The notes beneath the pieces were generated by a model. It did no database searches and was not told the DNA's origin. It worked only from the letters and a program-made list of their open reading frames with translations. From an uncultured Nitrospira sp. (GTDB lineage: Bacteria > Nitrospirota > Nitrospiria > Nitrospirales > Nitrospiraceae): DNA of 64,000 nucleotides. Below, piece after piece: positions 8,384-18,762 of this stretch (position 1 is the stretch's first letter; every line of letters starts with the position of its first letter). The translations under genes were made by a program, and so were the position numbers. The stretch covers positions 186,001 to 250,000 of the forward strand of contig CABVRX010000001.1 in assembly GCA_902500825.1 (NCBI GenBank), in the 5' to 3' direction.

Positions 8384-8558
8384 TCGGCTCTTATTGTCTA
8401 TTACATAGCGAACGTGAACATCACATCTTTCGGGCAGGTCGAGTTGGTTGTTGCCGAAGCGAATTTGTCTTTCCGCTTTATCAGAATTGTTTAGGAGGCC
8501 GGCTGAGTAGCCTGCGCTGCTCACTTATATTTTTCATGTTATGAAGGAGGGTCGGTTC

Positions 8559-11500
8559 ATGTCTCACCGTCATTACACATTCACCCGAGTCTTGAGCGGA
8601 CTCGCAGCCATCGCGCTGTGTATCGCGCCGTCGGCTGTGCTCGCTGAGGCTCCATCGCATGTGGCGATGAACCATCAGACGCCCGGTTGGGCTGAACAGC
8701 TGAAGGGGCAGACGATCATCGAAAATACGATGGAGGGCCAACCGGAGCGTACCACCATGGTCGACCGGCAGCACCAGCGGGTCATGCAACAGATGCAGCA
8801 TGACGCGACCGTGCAACGCGCCGGCGGGTACTACAACGACCTGAACATGATGCACCAGTACGGCGCCGGGAATCAGGACGTACTGCTCATGTCGAATCCC
8901 GGCACGGAACCGGTGTCGATGTCGGGCGGGCGCTGTCCCGTATCCGCACCGGTCCGGAAGTACGACATCTCGGCGATCAACGTCGAGATTTCGCTCAACA
9001 TGTGGCTCGACTTCTACCCTGGGTACATGTACGTCCTGACCGACAATCTGGCAAACGTTCGGGAAGAAGAAGCGACTAATCGGGCGGCCCGTGAGAAGGA
9101 AGGCTATGACCCTGGAGCCGTCAAGAACGGATTGCAGAGCCAGTGGATCCAGCCGCTGGTGATTCGGGGTAATCAGGGCGATTGCGTCAAGATGACGCTT
9201 CGCAATGAACTGGAGGGCGGCGAAGACGTCAGCCTCAATATTCACGGTTCCAGTATGATCGTCGCCTCCACGGGCAAACCGGCGACGACGACAAATCCGG
9301 ACAGCATCGCGGCTAAAGGAAAGGCCGTGGATCTGGAGTGGTATATTCCGCCGACTCAACAAGAGGGCGGTCGGCAGTTCCATTCGTACAGCAACGATCG
9401 CGAGCTGACGGTCATGGGTTTGTTCGGCACGTTCGTCGTTGAGCCCAAGGGGTCTCAATATCTCGACCCGCTGGGAACCGGCGAGCCGACATCAATGGCC
9501 AGCGGATGGCAGGCCATCATCAAGAATGGGGCCGGACCTGACTTCCGGGAATTCGTGTTGATCTATCATGAGGTCGGGGACGAGGCGTTCCGACCGCTGA
9601 ACAAGAAGGGCGATTTCATTCCTCAGCGGGATCCATTGACCGACGTGTACCGTCCAGTGGCTCGTGCGTTGAATTACCGGAGCGAGCCTTTCGGCGTCGA
9701 CAACATGCAGACGCAGCACGAGTACTTCGGCTTTGAAGACGAATCCATGGCTTACAGCGCCTATACCTTCGGCGATCCGGCCACGACCGTGCCCCGTAGC
9801 TATTTGGGCGACCCGGCAAAGTTTCGGCTTGTGCACGGCGGGTCTGAAGTGTTCCATTCCCATCATCCGCACGGAGGATCGATTCGTTGGCCGAGGAGTC
9901 CGCGCGCCATCGACGAAATGCCCTTGTGGCATGCGGCCAAGAACGGGCCGGTCAAGTATCCCGTGATTCGAATAAAGTCCGACCGAGTTGATGTGGAAGT
10001 CATCGGACCGTCCGAGACGATGGACCTGGAAACCGAATGCGGATCCGGTCTCTGCCAACAGTTGGCCGGGGACTTCCTGTTCCACTGCCACGTCGCTCAC
10101 CATTACATTGCGGGGATGTGGGGTTATTGGCGGGTGTACAACACGCTGCAGCAGGGCGAGCATCACAACGACGTGATGCCGGATCTGCGCGAATTGCCGG
10201 ACCGGGCCGGCCGTATTCAAACGGGTATTACATCGGATCAGCTCATCGGCCGTACCGTGGACTGGTTCGGAAAGATGTTCACGATCGTGAAGGACCGGAA
10301 GACGGACTGGAAGGCGTCGCCTGCCATCGTCAACATAAAGGATTGGGTCAACATGATGCTGCCGCCGCAGGGACAGCCTGGGCATCAGAAAGATGAGCGC
10401 GCCCAGACTCGTTCCTACGATGCGAGCGTGCTGGATTGGGCTTGGCAGGGTGATCGTGCGGTGACCGAACCAGAAAACAGCGTGGACAATCCGAGGTACA
10501 AGTCAACGACTCCCGGCAAGCGGGTGCCGATCCTCTTTGAAAGCGCCACCGGCAAGATCGCGTGGCCGCATTTGAAGCCGCATTTCGGCCGTCGCGTGCC
10601 CTTCTCCCAGAATCACAATCCTGCTCCTTGGCTGGATATGATTCACCTCGACGACGACGGGTTGCCCAGTTCCTATCCGGCCAAGCCGGGAGAAAATGGA
10701 CGCTGGAGCATCTGCCCCGAGAACGCGGGCTCGAAGAAATACAACGTGCATTTCATTCAGACGCCGATGACGCTGGCCGACAAGCAGGGGGATACGCCGG
10801 CCATCGTAGACAAGGACGGCTTGATCTATGTGCTGCACGAGGAAGAAGCGCAGACCAGGAAGAGCGACATCAAGTATCCGCTGGTCGTCCGCGCCAACAT
10901 TTATGATTGTATCGACTGGATGTTGACCAGCGAGTGGTTGGACGATGACCATATCAACTTCCAGGCATCGAAAATCAATACGCACTGGCACTTTCTGCAG
11001 TTCGACAATCAATCGTCCGACGGCGTGATCACCGGCTTTTCCTATGAGCAATCGGTGCGTCCGTTCACGATGCTGGAGAAGAAGGTGAAAAAGGGCCTGC
11101 CTGTGCCGATGAATACCGTGTTCACCAAGGCGGCGAAGAAGGGTGACCGGGTCATTACCGTCAAAAACGCCGCTCAATACCATCCGAATGTGGAGATCCT
11201 GATCGGAGCGGATAACGTCGAAGGCAACGAGATCGGTCGAGTCAAGTCGATCCAAGGCAATCAGATCACGCTCTATCGTCCGCTGAAAAATGCCCATCCG
11301 GCCAACGATATCGTGACGGTGGAGTTCGTCAGACAGCGATTCTGGGCGGATTCTGACGTGGGGACGGTCTTTTGGCACGACCATGCGCTGGGGCGTGTCA
11401 CATGGCCTCACGGGGGCTTCGGCACCCTTATCACCGAGCCGGTCGGTTCGACCTACCATGATCCCAAGACCGGGAAGCAGATCCGGAGCGGGCCGATTGC

Positions 11501-13382
11501 CGATATCAGAACGGCGGAGCCGGTTGGGTATGGAGTGAACGGCAGCTTCCGGGAGCTGATGGTGCAGCTCAATGACACCGTGCCGCATACGGTGAACATC
11601 GTCACGGCGGGTAATCCGCCGGGACAACCGATCGAAGTGGCGTTGGAGGCCGGGAAAACGGTGTCCTTCCCGATGCCGGAAAAAATTCCTATGACGCCGA
11701 TGCCCTTCCTGAACGGCGGAACGCATACGACCGGCGGCGGGTTAAATTTCAAGGCCGAGCCGATTTCGAGTCGCTTGGCCGCGAATCCTGATTCGTCGAA
11801 GTTGTTCAGCAGTGCAGTGCACGGCGACCCCTATACGCCGATGGTACGAGCGTATCTTGGCGATACGGTGGTGTTCCGGCTGCTTCAGACCATGGCGAAC
11901 GAGACGATGGTCTGGACGGTCTCAGGCCATACCTATCTGACTGAACGCTATGCGGGCGATGCGAACCGGAAGAACTCGATTCATATCGGCATTGCCGAAC
12001 GGTACGATCTGGTGGTGCCGCAAGCGGGCGGACCACGTCTCCAGACGGGAGACTACATCCACTTCAACGGCCGTGGGTCCAAGTTCTCGGAGGGTGCCTG
12101 GGGCATCATGCGGGTGTTGGACAAGGAGGTGCCGGATCTTCAAAAGCTGCCGGCCGGGTACAGTCGTCGAAATGAGATTCCCAAACCGTTGGCAGTCTGT
12201 CCGGCTGACGCTCCGGTGAAGAGCTTCAACGTCGTGGCGTTGGATTATCCGTCGATGAAGTTGAACCCCAAGGCGCCTGACACCATCGAGGTCGATTTCG
12301 AACGGACGATCCAGATGGTCAATCCGAACGCCAAGATTTACGCGTTGGAAGAGGACATGACAAAGGTCGCTGGGGGTGTTCAGCCCATGCCGCTGACCCT
12401 GAGGGCCAATGTCGGCGATTGCCTTAAAGTGAAACTGACCAACCGGATGAAGGAGAGCCGAGCGTCGTTCTCCGCCATCGGGTTGGCGTTCGATCCCAAG
12501 GATTCGCTCGGAGCCAACGTCGGGAATAATCCGGGCGATCAGACCGTCGCGCCGGGGGAGAACCGCACCTACACGTACTACGCGGACCCGTTCCTGGGAG
12601 AGACCGCCTCGTTGGTGTGGGACTGGGGCAATGTGATGATCAATCCACGGAGCGGGCTTTACGGAGGGGTGGTGATTGGCCCGAAGGGTGCCCAGTACCG
12701 TGACCCGAAAACCGGCGCGGATATTTCGACGAAAAACAGCTGGGTGGCCGATGTCATCGTTGATCGGACGATTCAGGGTTACGAGCATCGCGTCAACTAC
12801 CGCGACGTGGCCCTGTTCTTCCAGGACGAGGACAACATCATCGGAACAAGTTTCATGCCCTATGTGCAGAACACGGCGGGCTTGACGGCGGTCAACTACC
12901 GAGCGGAGCCATATAAGTTCCGCGAAGAGAAGGGTTGCACCCTCGGCAAGGTGTTCCAGCCTTGCGTCGTGGACAAGCCGGAAGATCCGGCGACGCCGAT
13001 CATTGAGGCACATGCAGGGGATCCGGTTCGGATCCATGTGTTCGGCGCGAGCAACGAGCAGAACGGCATGTTCAGTGTCGAACGCCATGAGTGGCCGATT
13101 GAGCCGTTCATGCGCGGCGCCGATATGATCAGTGTGGTCGAGTTCTCCGGATCGGAAACACTGGACGCGTTTATTCCGAACGCGGGGGGACCGTTCCGGA
13201 TGCCCGGCGATTATGTCTGGAGCAATCAGCGGTTACCGTACTCGCAGTCCGGACAGTGGGGGTATCTGCGGGTATTGCCGGCCGGAGATCAACGGCTACT
13301 GCCGCTCTCCGGAGCCGGAACTGGAGCGAAGAGTGCTTCAGCTGATGAGGGGGTGCATGTCGTTCCTGTAGCAAGACAGTAA
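8559..13382 (+). CDS. Giant multicopper oxidase (MnxG/McoA-like size and layout)
   Basis: 1607 residues. I chose the ATG at 8559: an AAGGAGG ribosome site ends 8 bases upstream and a clean signal peptide follows (to about residue 29); the ATG at 8541 precedes the ribosome site. All four copper motifs are present: HxxHxH as H433-S-H-H-P-H438, HCHxxxHxxxxM at 509-520 (T1 ligands H433, C510, H515, M520), HWH at 809-811 and HDH at 940-942. The order is III, IV, then I, II, a rearrangement. The chain holds about three repeats of a multi-cupredoxin unit; the last third (about 1210-1600) lacks copper motifs. A beta insert (about 845-930) lies between HWH and HDH. Predicted periplasmic or exported oxidation of a metal ion, with O2 as acceptor; Mn(II), Fe(II) and Cu(I) cannot be told apart. 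A terminator follows. Confidence 0.9.
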   Translation: MSHRHYTFTRVLSGLAAIALCIAPSAVLAEAPSHVAMNHQTPGWAEQLKGQTIIENTMEGQPERTTMVDRQHQRVMQQMQHDATVQRAGGYYNDLNMMHQYGAGNQDVLLMSNPGTEPVSMSGGRCPVSAPVRKYDISAINVEISLNMWLDFYPGYMYVLTDNLANVREEEATNRAAREKEGYDPGAVKNGLQSQWIQPLVIRGNQGDCVKMTLRNELEGGEDVSLNIHGSSMIVASTGKPATTTNPDSIAAKGKAVDLEWYIPPTQQEGGRQFHSYSNDRELTVMGLFGTFVVEPKGSQYLDPLGTGEPTSMASGWQAIIKNGAGPDFREFVLIYHEVGDEAFRPLNKKGDFIPQRDPLTDVYRPVARALNYRSEPFGVDNMQTQHEYFGFEDESMAYSAYTFGDPATTVPRSYLGDPAKFRLVHGGSEVFHSHHPHGGSIRWPRSPRAIDEMPLWHAAKNGPVKYPVIRIKSDRVDVEVIGPSETMDLETECGSGLCQQLAGDFLFHCHVAHHYIAGMWGYWRVYNTLQQGEHHNDVMPDLRELPDRAGRIQTGITSDQLIGRTVDWFGKMFTIVKDRKTDWKASPAIVNIKDWVNMMLPPQGQPGHQKDERAQTRSYDASVLDWAWQGDRAVTEPENSVDNPRYKSTTPGKRVPILFESATGKIAWPHLKPHFGRRVPFSQNHNPAPWLDMIHLDDDGLPSSYPAKPGENGRWSICPENAGSKKYNVHFIQTPMTLADKQGDTPAIVDKDGLIYVLHEEEAQTRKSDIKYPLVVRANIYDCIDWMLTSEWLDDDHINFQASKINTHWHFLQFDNQSSDGVITGFSYEQSVRPFTMLEKKVKKGLPVPMNTVFTKAAKKGDRVITVKNAAQYHPNVEILIGADNVEGNEIGRVKSIQGNQITLYRPLKNAHPANDIVTVEFVRQRFWADSDVGTVFWHDHALGRVTWPHGGFGTLITEPVGSTYHDPKTGKQIRSGPIADIRTAEPVGYGVNGSFRELMVQLNDTVPHTVNIVTAGNPPGQPIEVALEAGKTVSFPMPEKIPMTPMPFLNGGTHTTGGGLNFKAEPISSRLAANPDSSKLFSSAVHGDPYTPMVRAYLGDTVVFRLLQTMANETMVWTVSGHTYLTERYAGDANRKNSIHIGIAERYDLVVPQAGGPRLQTGDYIHFNGRGSKFSEGAWGIMRVLDKEVPDLQKLPAGYSRRNEIPKPLAVCPADAPVKSFNVVALDYPSMKLNPKAPDTIEVDFERTIQMVNPNAKIYALEEDMTKVAGGVQPMPLTLRANVGDCLKVKLTNRMKESRASFSAIGLAFDPKDSLGANVGNNPGDQTVAPGENRTYTYYADPFLGETASLVWDWGNVMINPRSGLYGGVVIGPKGAQYRDPKTGADISTKNSWVADVIVDRTIQGYEHRVNYRDVALFFQDEDNIIGTSFMPYVQNTAGLTAVNYRAEPYKFREEKGCTLGKVFQPCVVDKPEDPATPIIEAHAGDPVRIHVFGASNEQNGMFSVERHEWPIEPFMRGADMISVVEFSGSETLDAFIPNAGGPFRMPGDYVWSNQRLPYSQSGQWGYLRVLPAGDQRLLPLSGAGTGAKSASADEGVHVVPVARQ

Positions 13383-13416
13383 CTCAATCGCCTCCTCAGA
13401 GGCAGTGAGTTCAGAG

Positions 13417-13446
13417 AAAAGGGGGAGGCCTGCGCTCCCCCTTTTT
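13417..13446 (+). terminator. Intrinsic terminator after the multicopper oxidase
   Basis: Perfect 11-bp stem AAAAGGGGGAG / CTCCCCCTTTT (13417-13427 and 13435-13445), 7-base loop, then TTCTTT. A strong rho-independent terminator 34 bases after the oxidase stop. Confidence 0.85.
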
Positions 13447-13506
13447 CTTTATGACGATCATTTGATACGATGAGGAGAACCGACCTCAATTGAAGGTGAG
13501 ACTGCA

Positions 13507-14424
13507 ATGAAAACAACTATACCTGCTATCTTCGTTCCAGCCCTGCTCATCTTGATGTGTGCTTCAACGGCCTGGTCCTATCAAGAAATTGAAGTGAAAG
13601 ATGGCGGGACCATTACGGGACAAGTAAGAATGACGGAAGGGAAGCCGATCCCCAAAGGGTTCAATCTCATCACTTTTCCAGATCCCGTCTATTGTGGAAG
13701 AATTTCCACCGGGACCGGGTGGAGGATTTTGGAAGAATTTAACCTTTCGGCGGATCGAGGTCTCAAAGACACAGTTGTTGTGCTGATTGATGTGGCGAAG
13801 GGGAAGCCGTTCAAATTCGTGCCCCCCACCATCGAGGCGCGCGATTGCCGGTTCTTGCCGTTCGTGAGTGTGGTGAAGGACCGAGCCGAGGTTCGCGTCG
13901 TCAATATGGATCCGGTATTTCATGACATTCAGGCGTATGAAACGTCGGAATTGGGTCCACGTGTGTTATTCAACACACCGCTTCCGATGAATCCCCTGCA
14001 TGTGCGTGATGCCGGGTCCGAGAGTCATGAGCATCTGGCCGGACAACCGATGACTGAAATCGTCAAGCTGACGAAAAACCGTCGGTTCTTCGTCATGCAG
14101 TGTGGCTTCCATGCCTACATGGAAAGCTGGGGGCTTGCCGTGGACAATCCGTATTACATGGTGACCGATTCGGATGGACAGTTTTCGCTGTCCGATGTGC
14201 CGGCCGGCGAGTATACCTTGATAGCGTGGCATCCCGGCGTAGGGACTGTGCTCGAAAAGAAAATATCGGTATCGGCGAAGCAGACGCATCAAGTAGATTT
14301 CACGTTCGAGTCTCCCAAAGGGCGTCGAAGCGTCCACCAAATCGCGGAAAATACGCATTACGGGTTGGAGGCGCTGGGAAAACCCATTGAGATTCGTCCG
14401 ACACTCCAACTGCAGACGCCATAA
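13507..14424 (+). CDS. Cupredoxin-like protein with carboxypeptidase-regulatory domain (copy 1)
   Basis: 305 residues, signal peptide to about residue 26 (A-W-S-Y). The middle part reads N-M-D-P-V-F-H-D-I-Q (H139) and later Q-C-G-F-H-A-Y-M (C199, H202, M205), the H...C-x2-H-x2-M set expected for a type 1 (blue) copper site. It is followed by a beta domain of the carboxypeptidase-regulatory/PEGA type (about 212-260: S-D-V-P-A-G-E-Y-T-L). Predicted periplasmic electron carrier or copper binder. It is a paralogue of the next gene, and both sit directly behind the multicopper oxidase. Copper loading is inference; the N-terminal cysteine (C-G-R-I-S) is also conserved between the two copies. Confidence 0.8.
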   Translation: MKTTIPAIFVPALLILMCASTAWSYQEIEVKDGGTITGQVRMTEGKPIPKGFNLITFPDPVYCGRISTGTGWRILEEFNLSADRGLKDTVVVLIDVAKGKPFKFVPPTIEARDCRFLPFVSVVKDRAEVRVVNMDPVFHDIQAYETSELGPRVLFNTPLPMNPLHVRDAGSESHEHLAGQPMTEIVKLTKNRRFFVMQCGFHAYMESWGLAVDNPYYMVTDSDGQFSLSDVPAGEYTLIAWHPGVGTVLEKKISVSAKQTHQVDFTFESPKGRRSVHQIAENTHYGLEALGKPIEIRPTLQLQTP

Positions 14425-14453
14425 TTTGTTCGTTTGAATTGGAACATTGCGCG

Positions 14454-15383
14454 ATGAAGAGAGTTGTTTGGATGTTCAGCGTTAGTGCCGCCCTTGTCTC
14501 AGCGGTAGTCTTGTCATCGGTCACGCCGGCAAGCGCCTATGAGGTGATCGATGTCCGCCACGGTGGAACCATCGAAGGGACGGTGACTCTCGATGGGTCG
14601 GTGCCGGAGCCGAAGGGGTTCAATCTGATCACCTTTCCGGATCCTGCCTATTGCGGTCGTATCTCCAACGGCCGAGGGTGGCGATTGCTGCATGACTTTG
14701 TCGTCGGTCGTCAGGGAGGATTGAGGAGCGCCATTGTGCTCCTGGAAGGGATCGAAGCAGGGAAACCGTTTGAGGTGTCTGTTCCCTTGATCGAAGCCCG
14801 CGACTGCATGTTTCAGCCGTTCATGACCATTGTCCGCAATGGGCATGCCGTCGAAGTCATTAACATGGATCCCGTGATGCACGACATCCAAGGCTATGAG
14901 ACATCGCCGGAAGCCGGTGCGCGAGTCTTGTTCAATACCCCTTTGGTCATGAATCATCAGCATCGGCGAGGGGATATCCATGCGACACACGACCATGCGC
15001 CGGGAGCATCGTTGGTCGGGCCGATTTATTTGAATAAGGGGCGACGTACATTTTATATGCAATGTGGCTTCCATGCCTACATGGAAAGCTGGGCCATGGC
15101 CGTGAACAATCCTTACTATGCCCTGACGGATGCTGAAGGGAAGTTCTCGATCGAGGGCATTCCCCCCGGCACGTATCAGTTGGTGGTATGGCACCCGCAG
15201 ACCGGGCCCGGAACGACAAGGACGGTCGTGGTGCAACCGGACGGCAAACTGCGTGAGCAACTTTCGTTACCCGCTCCCAAGGGGAATCGAACCGCGTACA
15301 AGGTCGTGGATAACCCTCGGTTCGGCCCAGAATCTTTAGGATACGCTGTTGATATCCAGCCGGTGGTCGAACATCAACAGTGA
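14454..15383 (+). CDS. Cupredoxin-like protein with carboxypeptidase-regulatory domain (copy 2)
   Basis: 309 residues from the ATG at 14454; the longer frame begins at a TTG without a ribosome site. Signal peptide to about residue 27. The layout matches copy 1: C-G-R-I-S near residue 65, N-M-D-P-V-M-H-D-I-Q (H143), Q-C-G-F-H-A-Y-M (C204, H207, M210), then a beta domain (G-I-P-P-G-T-Y-Q-L). Copy 2 has a histidine-rich insert after N-T-P-L-V-M-N-H-Q-H-R-R (several H over about 20 residues) that is weaker in copy 1 and may bind metal. Tandem duplication is evident. The gap to copy 1 is 29 bases, so the two are probably one transcript. Confidence 0.8.
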   Translation: MKRVVWMFSVSAALVSAVVLSSVTPASAYEVIDVRHGGTIEGTVTLDGSVPEPKGFNLITFPDPAYCGRISNGRGWRLLHDFVVGRQGGLRSAIVLLEGIEAGKPFEVSVPLIEARDCMFQPFMTIVRNGHAVEVINMDPVMHDIQGYETSPEAGARVLFNTPLVMNHQHRRGDIHATHDHAPGASLVGPIYLNKGRRTFYMQCGFHAYMESWAMAVNNPYYALTDAEGKFSIEGIPPGTYQLVVWHPQTGPGTTRTVVVQPDGKLREQLSLPAPKGNRTAYKVVDNPRFGPESLGYAVDIQPVVEHQQ

Positions 15384-16862: not shown

Positions 16863-16966
16863 GTTCGAGATGTGCCCTTGTGTTGCCCCGTTCCTTGATA
16901 TTCTTGAATCAGGCATGCTTTCCAAGGCTCTGGTTCAGTGAACCAAATTCTGATCGTGTGGAAGGA

Positions 16967-17848
16967 ATGATGTCCATGGTTCTTCGCGCTCTCGTTATGT
17001 CGGCGCTGTTGGGCGTTTGGCTCAACGCGTCCTTTCTGTTTGCGAATGAGCAAACAGCCCACCATCCGATCGAGCCGCCGGCGAGCAAAGACGGCGCACC
17101 AATGATCGTGGTCCCCGCCGGCTCGTTCCCAATGGGTGTACCGGCTGGAGCCCGTGACGGGGGACGTGATGAATATCCACGGCATGAGGTGTTTATAGAC
17201 ACGTTTATGATCGACACCTATGAGGTGACAAACGGCCGTTATCTGGAATTCGTGAAGTCCACAGGACATCGTGTTCCCCAGAATCCAAGAAATCCGACAA
17301 GAAACCTCTGGCAAGGAGAGAGCATCGCCGATTCGTTGACCGAGCGACCCGTGATCAATGTGGATTGGTTTGATGCCGAAGCCTACTGCAGATGGGCAGG
17401 CAAACGACTCCCCACTGAAGCCGAATGGGAAAAGGCGGCCAAGGGGACGACCGATAGGCGATTCCCTTGGGGGAACGTCGAACCGACCGCTAAACATCTC
17501 AATTACAATCAACGGTGGATCGGGGAGAAGACGCTCATGCCCGTCGGAAGTTATGAGGCGGGCAAAAGCCCGTATGGCCTGTATGACATGGCCGGCAATG
17601 TGTGGGAATGGGTCAACGACTGGTATGATGCCGGATACTATGAGAAGAGCCCGAGCAAGAATCCAAAGGGTCCGGCCACAGGCACAAAGAAAGTGATTCG
17701 TGGCGCGGGCTGGCAAAATGAGTCGCCCACGGTTCGCATCTTTACTCGCGTGGAGAGCGACCCAACCGTCCGAAACGAGTCCACAGGATTTCGTTGCGCG
17801 TCCGATGCACCGATGAAGCAGTCAACAGGGAATCCGACAACTCCCTAA
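16967..17848 (+). CDS. Exported SUMF1-fold protein lacking FGE cysteines
   Basis: 293 residues from the first ATG of the A-T-G-A-T-G cluster; a GGAAGG site just upstream could also favour the ATG at 16976. Signal peptide to about residue 25. The rest is the formylglycine-generating-enzyme/sulfatase-modifying fold: V-P-A-G-S-F-P-M-G, E-V-T-N-G-R-Y, R-L-P-T-E-A-E-W-E-K-A, F-P-W-G, Y-D-M-A-G-N-V-W-E-W, V-I-R-G-A-G-W and G-F-R-C. The two active-site cysteines expected after R-G-G-S-W are absent, so true sulfatase activation is unlikely. Such proteins often act as accessory or ligand-binding factors. It converges on and overlaps the stop of the next gene. Confidence 0.8.
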   Translation: MMSMVLRALVMSALLGVWLNASFLFANEQTAHHPIEPPASKDGAPMIVVPAGSFPMGVPAGARDGGRDEYPRHEVFIDTFMIDTYEVTNGRYLEFVKSTGHRVPQNPRNPTRNLWQGESIADSLTERPVINVDWFDAEAYCRWAGKRLPTEAEWEKAAKGTTDRRFPWGNVEPTAKHLNYNQRWIGEKTLMPVGSYEAGKSPYGLYDMAGNVWEWVNDWYDAGYYEKSPSKNPKGPATGTKKVIRGAGWQNESPTVRIFTRVESDPTVRNESTGFRCASDAPMKQSTGNPTTP

Positions 17849-18762
17849 CCAGGGTTCTTCAATGATCGCGCGCACCGGAAGCCGATCGTCGTGGCACGTT
17901 GGTCCGGCAAGGCGCCGCCTCGGGTGGCCGTTCGAAGCATGACGCGTTTACTTTTCCAGGAACCACCGCGGACGCTCTTGTAGCGGCCGGTGCTTGGGCC
18001 CGGAGGATTACGTTCCGGCATGTACGCATAGTAGTCGAATCCGAACCAGTCCTGCACCCATTCGGCAATGTTGCCCGCCATATGGTGGAGACCATAGGGA
18101 CTTCTGCCTTCCTCATGGGAATCGACTGCTGCGAGAATGGGGATTTCATGGACATGGTGCTGGCCGAATATCGCGAGGGTGGAGCTGGGAGTCGCTTCAC
18201 CCCAGGGGTAAGGAATGCCGTCAAACCCTCGCGCCGCTTTCTCCCATTCGGCCTCGGTCGGTAGTCTGGCCTGCTTTGCCGCGCATAGACTGTTCGCCTC
18301 CTCCCACGTAACATAGAGGGCAGGCCAGCGGGATATGGTTTGGTCCGAGACAGAGTGGACGGTGATGACATGCCAGAGGAGTTTCTGCAGCTCATCGGAA
18401 GGATGAAGCTTCTGTTTGTACAGGAAGGCCAGATATTCTCCGAGACTCACTTCATCTCGATCCATCTCATAGGCATCCAACCAAACTCGATGTTGAGGCA
18501 GTTCCGTATCGTCAAATTGGGTCGAGTTTCCATAAGGGTCGTTATCGACTCTATTGCTTCCGAGCAAAAACGTTCCGGCTGGGACGCTCATCATCGGCGC
18601 CGGTCTGGCCAGCGTGACGATCTCTGTCAAATGGCGGGCCAGTTCCGATGAGGGTTTGGAGCCGGCCTCCACGACAGAGGGGCTTCCCATGAGGACCAGG
18701 AGAGCGAGCGTGATCACCGACCATGCACAGCAGGGCGGCATAGCCTTGTCCGGGAGATGCAT
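17845..18762 (-). CDS. Second exported SUMF1-fold protein lacking FGE cysteines
   Basis: 305 residues with a signal peptide (to about residue 33; an internal ATG at codon 8 is an alternative start). Same fold as its convergent neighbour: V-P-A-G-T-F-L-L-G-S, R-L-P-T-E-A-E-W-E-K-A-A-R, Y-P-W-G, H-M-A-G-N-I-A-E-W-V-Q-D-W, V-R-G-G-S-W-K-S, G-F-R-C-A-R-S. The segment after R-G-G-S-W has no cysteines, so oxidase chemistry is not expected. Stop codons of the two SUMF1 genes overlap by three bases (17846-17848 area). Two divergent paralogues tail to tail suggest an old duplication with inversion. Confidence 0.8.
   Translation of the reverse strand: MHLPDKAMPPCCAWSVITLALLVLMGSPSVVEAGSKPSSELARHLTEIVTLARPAPMMSVPAGTFLLGSNRVDNDPYGNSTQFDDTELPQHRVWLDAYEMDRDEVSLGEYLAFLYKQKLHPSDELQKLLWHVITVHSVSDQTISRWPALYVTWEEANSLCAAKQARLPTEAEWEKAARGFDGIPYPWGEATPSSTLAIFGQHHVHEIPILAAVDSHEEGRSPYGLHHMAGNIAEWVQDWFGFDYYAYMPERNPPGPSTGRYKSVRGGSWKSKRVMLRTATRGGALPDQRATTIGFRCARSLKNPG

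Follow-up and report, generated by a model that had tools for sequence, protein, structure and literature searches.

In trimeric two-domain copper oxidases, domain 2 of each unit and domain 1 of the following one hold a trinuclear centre between them, and a fused trimer may keep one such junction, at domains 2/3, 4/5 or 6/1. The small laccases are of the trimeric kind, with separate subunits of about 300 amino acids and three active junctions. Among fused forms, all bacterial six-domain oxidases analysed in PMC3600357 have the trinuclear centre at domains 2/3 and the mononuclear site in domain 2 only, with remnants at the other junctions. Ceruloplasmin and hephaestin are also six-domain fused trimers of two-domain units with a single trinuclear centre, which in their case is found at domains 6/1, with T1 copper in domains 2, 4 and 6 (PMC3600357).

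Oxidases of this kind were noted in Nitrospira and Nitrospina as early as 2013, and the passages of PMC3578206 covered here describe the MnxG-like oxidases of Nitrospira defluvii and Nitrospina gracilis as periplasmic and similar to the manganese oxidase of Bacillus SG-1. MnxG genes have since been recorded in Nitrospira or nitrifier genomes (PMC12070406, PMC11995701), with their activity regarded as unproven in PMC11995701. The six-domain layout, the placement of the motifs and the existence of MnxG-like oxidases in Nitrospira are already known. The same passages of PMC3578206 do not mention motif order, class-wide copy number or linked blue-copper proteins, and the searched passages of nitrifier papers from 2019-2020 hold nothing on the giant oxidase. 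What is new in our analysis is the near-universal presence of the oxidase in the class Nitrospiria, its linkage to blue-copper proteins and its occurrence without a recognisable NxrB.

The oxidase gene and its kinship with MnxG

The window analysed here is a stretch of 64,000 nucleotides from an uncultured Nitrospira. Translation and homology identify a giant six-domain MnxG-like multicopper oxidase of 1607 amino acids at positions 8559-13382 of the plus strand, and its 1607 codons are read through with no internal stop. The ATG at 8559 is the better start because a ribosome-binding sequence, AAGGAGG (8544-8550, plus strand), can be read 8 bases before it; an in-frame ATG at 8541 was considered and is disfavoured. 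On inspection, the N-terminus resembles a Sec signal peptide ending at about ...SAVLAEA.

Four copper motifs were located on the plus strand by sequence and alignment. Motif III, HSHHPH (residues 433-438, positions 9855-9872), and motif IV, HCHVAHHYIAGM (residues 509-520, positions 10083-10118), lie in domain 2, while motif I, HWH (residues 809-811, positions 10983-10991), and motif II, HDH (residues 940-942, positions 11376-11384), lie in domain 3. We take it as established for multicopper oxidases that motif III supplies one T1 ligand and two trinuclear-centre ligands. In motif IV, Cys510, His515 and Met520 are the T1 ligands and His509 and His511 the trinuclear ones. The full set of 12 ligands (H433, H436, H438, H509, C510, H511, H515, M520, H809, H811, H940, H942) is identical at 12/12 positions across nine members picked for divergence, namely the four Nitrospira paralogue types, a Streptomyces protein, the MnxG of a Priestia mnx operon, and haloarchaeal, alphaproteobacterial and actinobacterial proteins. 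This invariance excludes a chance origin of the motifs. The original prediction had placed the four motifs and all their expected ligands at exactly these residues, as both translation and alignment now confirm. One copy from a Nitrospira MAG (L016) reads PSHHPH for HSHHPH, and so lacks the first T1 histidine of motif III; this proline could be a sequencing error or the sign of a degenerate copy.

The kinship with MnxG, to which the original prediction had pointed, is borne out by collinear matches. In a profile comparison with Priestia MnxG (hhalign), residues 132-1583 of the oxidase align with residues 2-1213 of MnxG (Prob 100, E 1.4e-95, 1125 columns), and further alignments appear when the register is moved by one unit or by two. 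The sole long PDB match by phmmer is the MnxG of 9bxa (E 9e-79), followed by two-domain copper oxidases. Pfam reports weak Cu-oxidase domains only. In NCBIfam the MnxG equivalog NF041487 is the only strong match, yet it scores 132 bits against a curated cut-off of 3100, which the MnxG of the Priestia mnx operon also fails to reach (353 bits). This Priestia protein comes from a Priestia megaterium plasmid with a gene set that reads as an mnx operon; it aligns with 9bxa from end to end (1700 bits), and a small gene beside it matches the MnxF of 9bxa.

The oxidase and the MnxG of Bacillus and Priestia (PDB 9bxa) both have six cupredoxin domains, are collinear over the full length, confine the T1 ligands to domain 2, and carry their ligands at identical positions, with the motifs ordered III-IV-I-II. 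In the 9bxa chain an alanine stands at the position of the T1 ligand His515, which is probably an engineered change. The two differ in sequence (about 28% identity to the mnx-operon MnxG), and the Nitrospira protein is about 380 residues longer and carries the putative signal peptide. Their gene neighbours differ as well, with blue-copper proteins beside the Nitrospira oxidase and MnxE/MnxF beside the Bacillus-type MnxG; no small MnxE/MnxF-like gene was seen in the neighbourhood of the oxidase.

Domain architecture and motif order

The oxidase consists of three two-domain cupredoxin units arranged head to tail, at residues of about 128-545, 735-1200 and 1222-1590. Units 1-3 match one another in profile comparison with Prob 99.0-99.7, and with 26-27% identity where this is printed. 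Together with the shifted-register matches to MnxG, this identifies the oxidase as three copies of a two-domain oxidase fused into one chain. In a six-domain alignment of the nine members, all 12 ligands are confined to domains 2 and 3 and the T1 set is found only in domain 2, while domains 1, 4, 5 and 6 have degenerate residues at the equivalent positions. Judging by this alignment, the copper sites at the other two unit junctions are decayed.

The layout of three-domain laccases, CueO and CopA, with the order I-II-III-IV, does not apply to this protein, which has six domains and the order III-IV-I-II instead. Motifs III and IV precede I and II because the former, in domain 2, are predicted to meet the latter, in domain 3, at one unit junction. 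The same order is common to the Streptomyces, Priestia, haloarchaeal, alphaproteobacterial and actinobacterial relatives, and it is found in 26/26 sequences from deep-branching members of the class Nitrospiria that have all four motifs readable. As far as these sequences go, III-IV-I-II is the rule of the MnxG-like family and not an oddity. The original prediction had called the motifs rearranged. The order itself is real, but the term is misleading for what is normal in six-domain fused trimers (PMC3600357, and the relatives aligned here). A unique rearrangement in this protein is rejected, since every aligned relative shares the order and PMC3600357 reports the same layout.

Compared with the small laccases, which are among its second-best PDB matches, the oxidase is predicted to have the same kind of trinuclear junction, between a domain 2 and the domain 1 of the next unit, with one active junction instead of three. 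Unlike ceruloplasmin and hephaestin, it appears from its sequence to place the trinuclear ligands in domains 2/3 and to have a single T1 site. An AlphaFold2 model of residues 110-1225, built with 12 homologues, reached a mean pLDDT of 39.9, which is too poor for geometry or a fold search. From homology to the described oxidases, we infer that the four motifs would converge into one trinuclear centre.

Blue-copper neighbours and distribution in the class Nitrospiria

Two genes for blue-copper proteins follow the oxidase on the plus strand. Ligands, model and homologues indicate that the first (13507-14424) encodes an exported plastocyanin/amicyanin-like protein; the second (14439-15383) encodes an exported homologue of it, whose reading frame may instead begin with the ATG at 14454. 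In the first protein, H115, C175, H178 and M181 (mature-fragment numbering) are invariant in 23 homologues of 29-91% identity, and the model (pLDDT 83) matches plastocyanin with Z 10.5 and amicyanin with Z of about 9.6 over residues of about 80-188. Sequence and model point to a cupredoxin fold with a His-Cys-His-Met T1 ligand set, and so to a predicted copper site. For the segment 13579-14421, the model matches the structures of Ig-like proteins over residues of about 7-247 and those of cupredoxins over residues 78-189; a carboxypeptidase-regulatory/Ig-like domain thus seems to contain the blue-copper core as an insertion. Between the oxidase and the first of these genes, a strong terminator-like hairpin with a T-rich tail is predicted at 13413-13450 (-21 kcal/mol), which suggests that the oxidase has its own transcript. 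Because this hairpin separates the two genes, we do not assume that they are co-transcribed. Further downstream of the cluster, at 16880-18762, there are two convergent formylglycine-generating-enzyme-like (FGE-sulfatase) genes, which are kept in close relatives.

Our survey covered 395 Nitrospirota genomes, 178 of which gave a match to the oxidase; the class counts were made by hand from the result table. The oxidase is found in 171 of the 172 sampled class-Nitrospiria genomes, usually in two or more copies, whereas matches outside the class are limited to 7/223 other Nitrospirota and are all weak. The one class member without the oxidase (G355) also lacks the blue-copper neighbour genes. A quick tree, which was used only for paralogue groups within Nitrospira since its deep long branches are not trusted, separates four groups. 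Group A holds the window oxidase, N. moscoviensis L011 and N. defluvii L073; group B (about 75% identity) includes L022 and L045; group C has about 65% identity; and group D (55% identity) includes the window genome's other copy of the gene (L006/L107). Two N. defluvii loci, L045 and L073, evidently belong to the same family as the oxidases described in PMC3578206.

The linkage to blue-copper genes varies between these groups. Among loci with enough flank, such genes come after the oxidase at 40/41 type-B, 3/4 type-C and 2/2 type-D loci, and at 8/21 type-A loci, leaving 13 of the 21 without this neighbour. Across the 20 deep-branching class genomes outside the order, a blue-copper gene adjoins 27 of 30 oxidase genes, lying downstream of 23 and upstream of 4. 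One deep-branching class member (G136:C7:16714-29621) has three blue-copper-like genes between two giant oxidases. At the type-D locus of the window genome (L107, 551-8591, minus strand), a blue-copper-like gene comes after the second oxidase, and past this gene lies a type I restriction-modification system that includes a RhuM-family gene.

PMC3578206, in the part covered, places the MnxG-like oxidase of Nitrospina in the NXR cluster. In agreement with this, NxrA/NxrB are found near the oxidase at five loci (L010, L011 of N. moscoviensis, L018, L075 and L100). In contrast, the oxidase is present in 20/20 deep-branching class-Nitrospiria genomes in which there is no convincing NxrB (none, or weak ferredoxin-like matches), and this weakens the idea of a tie to nitrite oxidation; the retention of the oxidase without a recognisable NxrB argues against a purely NXR-bound role. 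The window genome itself yielded no NxrB, compared with a match in 16/20 relatives, and of NxrA only the first 29 residues, at two contig ends (G000:C26:1-87 and G000:C37:1-87). Its assembly probably broke at the repeated nxr genes, so absence of NXR is not to be concluded.

Proposed function

From the observed ligands, repeats, homology, distribution and linkage, we infer export, assembly of the copper centre, O2 reduction, the kind of substrate and a partner role for the neighbours. On balance we regard it as fairly probable that the protein acts in the periplasm as an O2-reducing metal-ion oxidase (for Mn, Fe or Cu) and works with blue-copper carriers. One T1 copper would be bound in domain 2 by H433, C510, H515 and M520, and one trinuclear centre would be formed by four histidine pairs, from motifs III and IV in domain 2 and motifs I and II in domain 3. 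Electrons of the substrate would enter at T1 and reach the trinuclear centre by way of the Cys-His bridge, and O2 would be reduced to water there. The reducing substrate would most likely be Mn(II)/Mn(III), Fe(II) or Cu(I), and the neighbouring blue-copper proteins are likely partners in electron transfer or copper delivery. The suggestion in the original prediction of a candidate metal oxidase is plausible and had been put forward for Nitrospira before (PMC3578206, PMC12070406).

The choice of metal is less firm. A manganese oxidase proper, which would make Mn(III)/Mn(IV) outside the cytoplasm as protection from reactive oxygen species or as a side reaction, is a tentative reading that we would put below an even chance. 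Among characterised relatives, the Mn(II) oxidase MnxG is the closest, and manganese oxidation with protection from reactive oxygen is proposed for Nitrospina/Nitrospira in the covered passages of PMC3578206. Nitrospira has also been implicated in manganese removal in sand filters (PMC12070406), and all 'Ca. Manganitrophaceae' encode two multicopper oxidases, of whatever family (PMC9040806). On the other hand, identity to mnx-operon MnxG is about 28%, an MnxF query run against the window genome without a positive control gave no match, and multicopper oxidases are promiscuous, with manganese oxidation by nitrifiers unproven (PMC11995701).

A role as an oxidase of Cu(I) or Fe(II) that serves metal detoxification or homeostasis, comparable to CueO or ceruloplasmin, is rather doubtful. 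The sequence suggests an O2-reducing multicopper oxidase type with the same core site, predicted copper-binding proteins are encoded next door, and the Streptomyces relative adjoins a gene annotated as copper resistance protein CopC. But four further PF07732 oxidases are encoded in this genome, some of which, at least, could serve for this purpose, and general detoxification would leave the restriction to the class Nitrospiria unexplained. It is unlikely that the protein is a soluble periplasmic O2 reductase fed by the neighbouring blue-copper protein and draining the electron transport chain: the adjacency to proteins with a T1 ligand set in a plastocyanin-like fold is conserved, but adjacency does not show interaction, the terminator-like hairpin lies between both genes, and the neighbour is often missing at type-A loci.

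One further reading, which we regard as very improbable, concerns the oxidase together with its blue-copper carriers. Throughout the class Nitrospiria, the two could act as a metal-oxidation module that lets T1 electrons from Mn(II) or Fe(II) pass through the carrier to the respiratory chain. If this were true, the module would hand electrons to the respiratory chain and not only to O2, metal oxidation by a multicopper oxidase would be energy-conserving, and the missing step named for 'Ca. Manganitrophaceae' (PMC9040806) would be supplied.

Nitrospira are leading nitrite oxidizers and are suspected to take part in the removal of manganese in drinking-water filters. The anatomy of the oxidase narrows the question of function to one testable protein pair, and the class-wide linkage of oxidase and blue-copper genes is the part worth following. 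The near-universal occurrence of the oxidase, usually in multiple copies and beside blue-copper genes, whether or not an NXR is recognisable, suggests a basic function common to the class.
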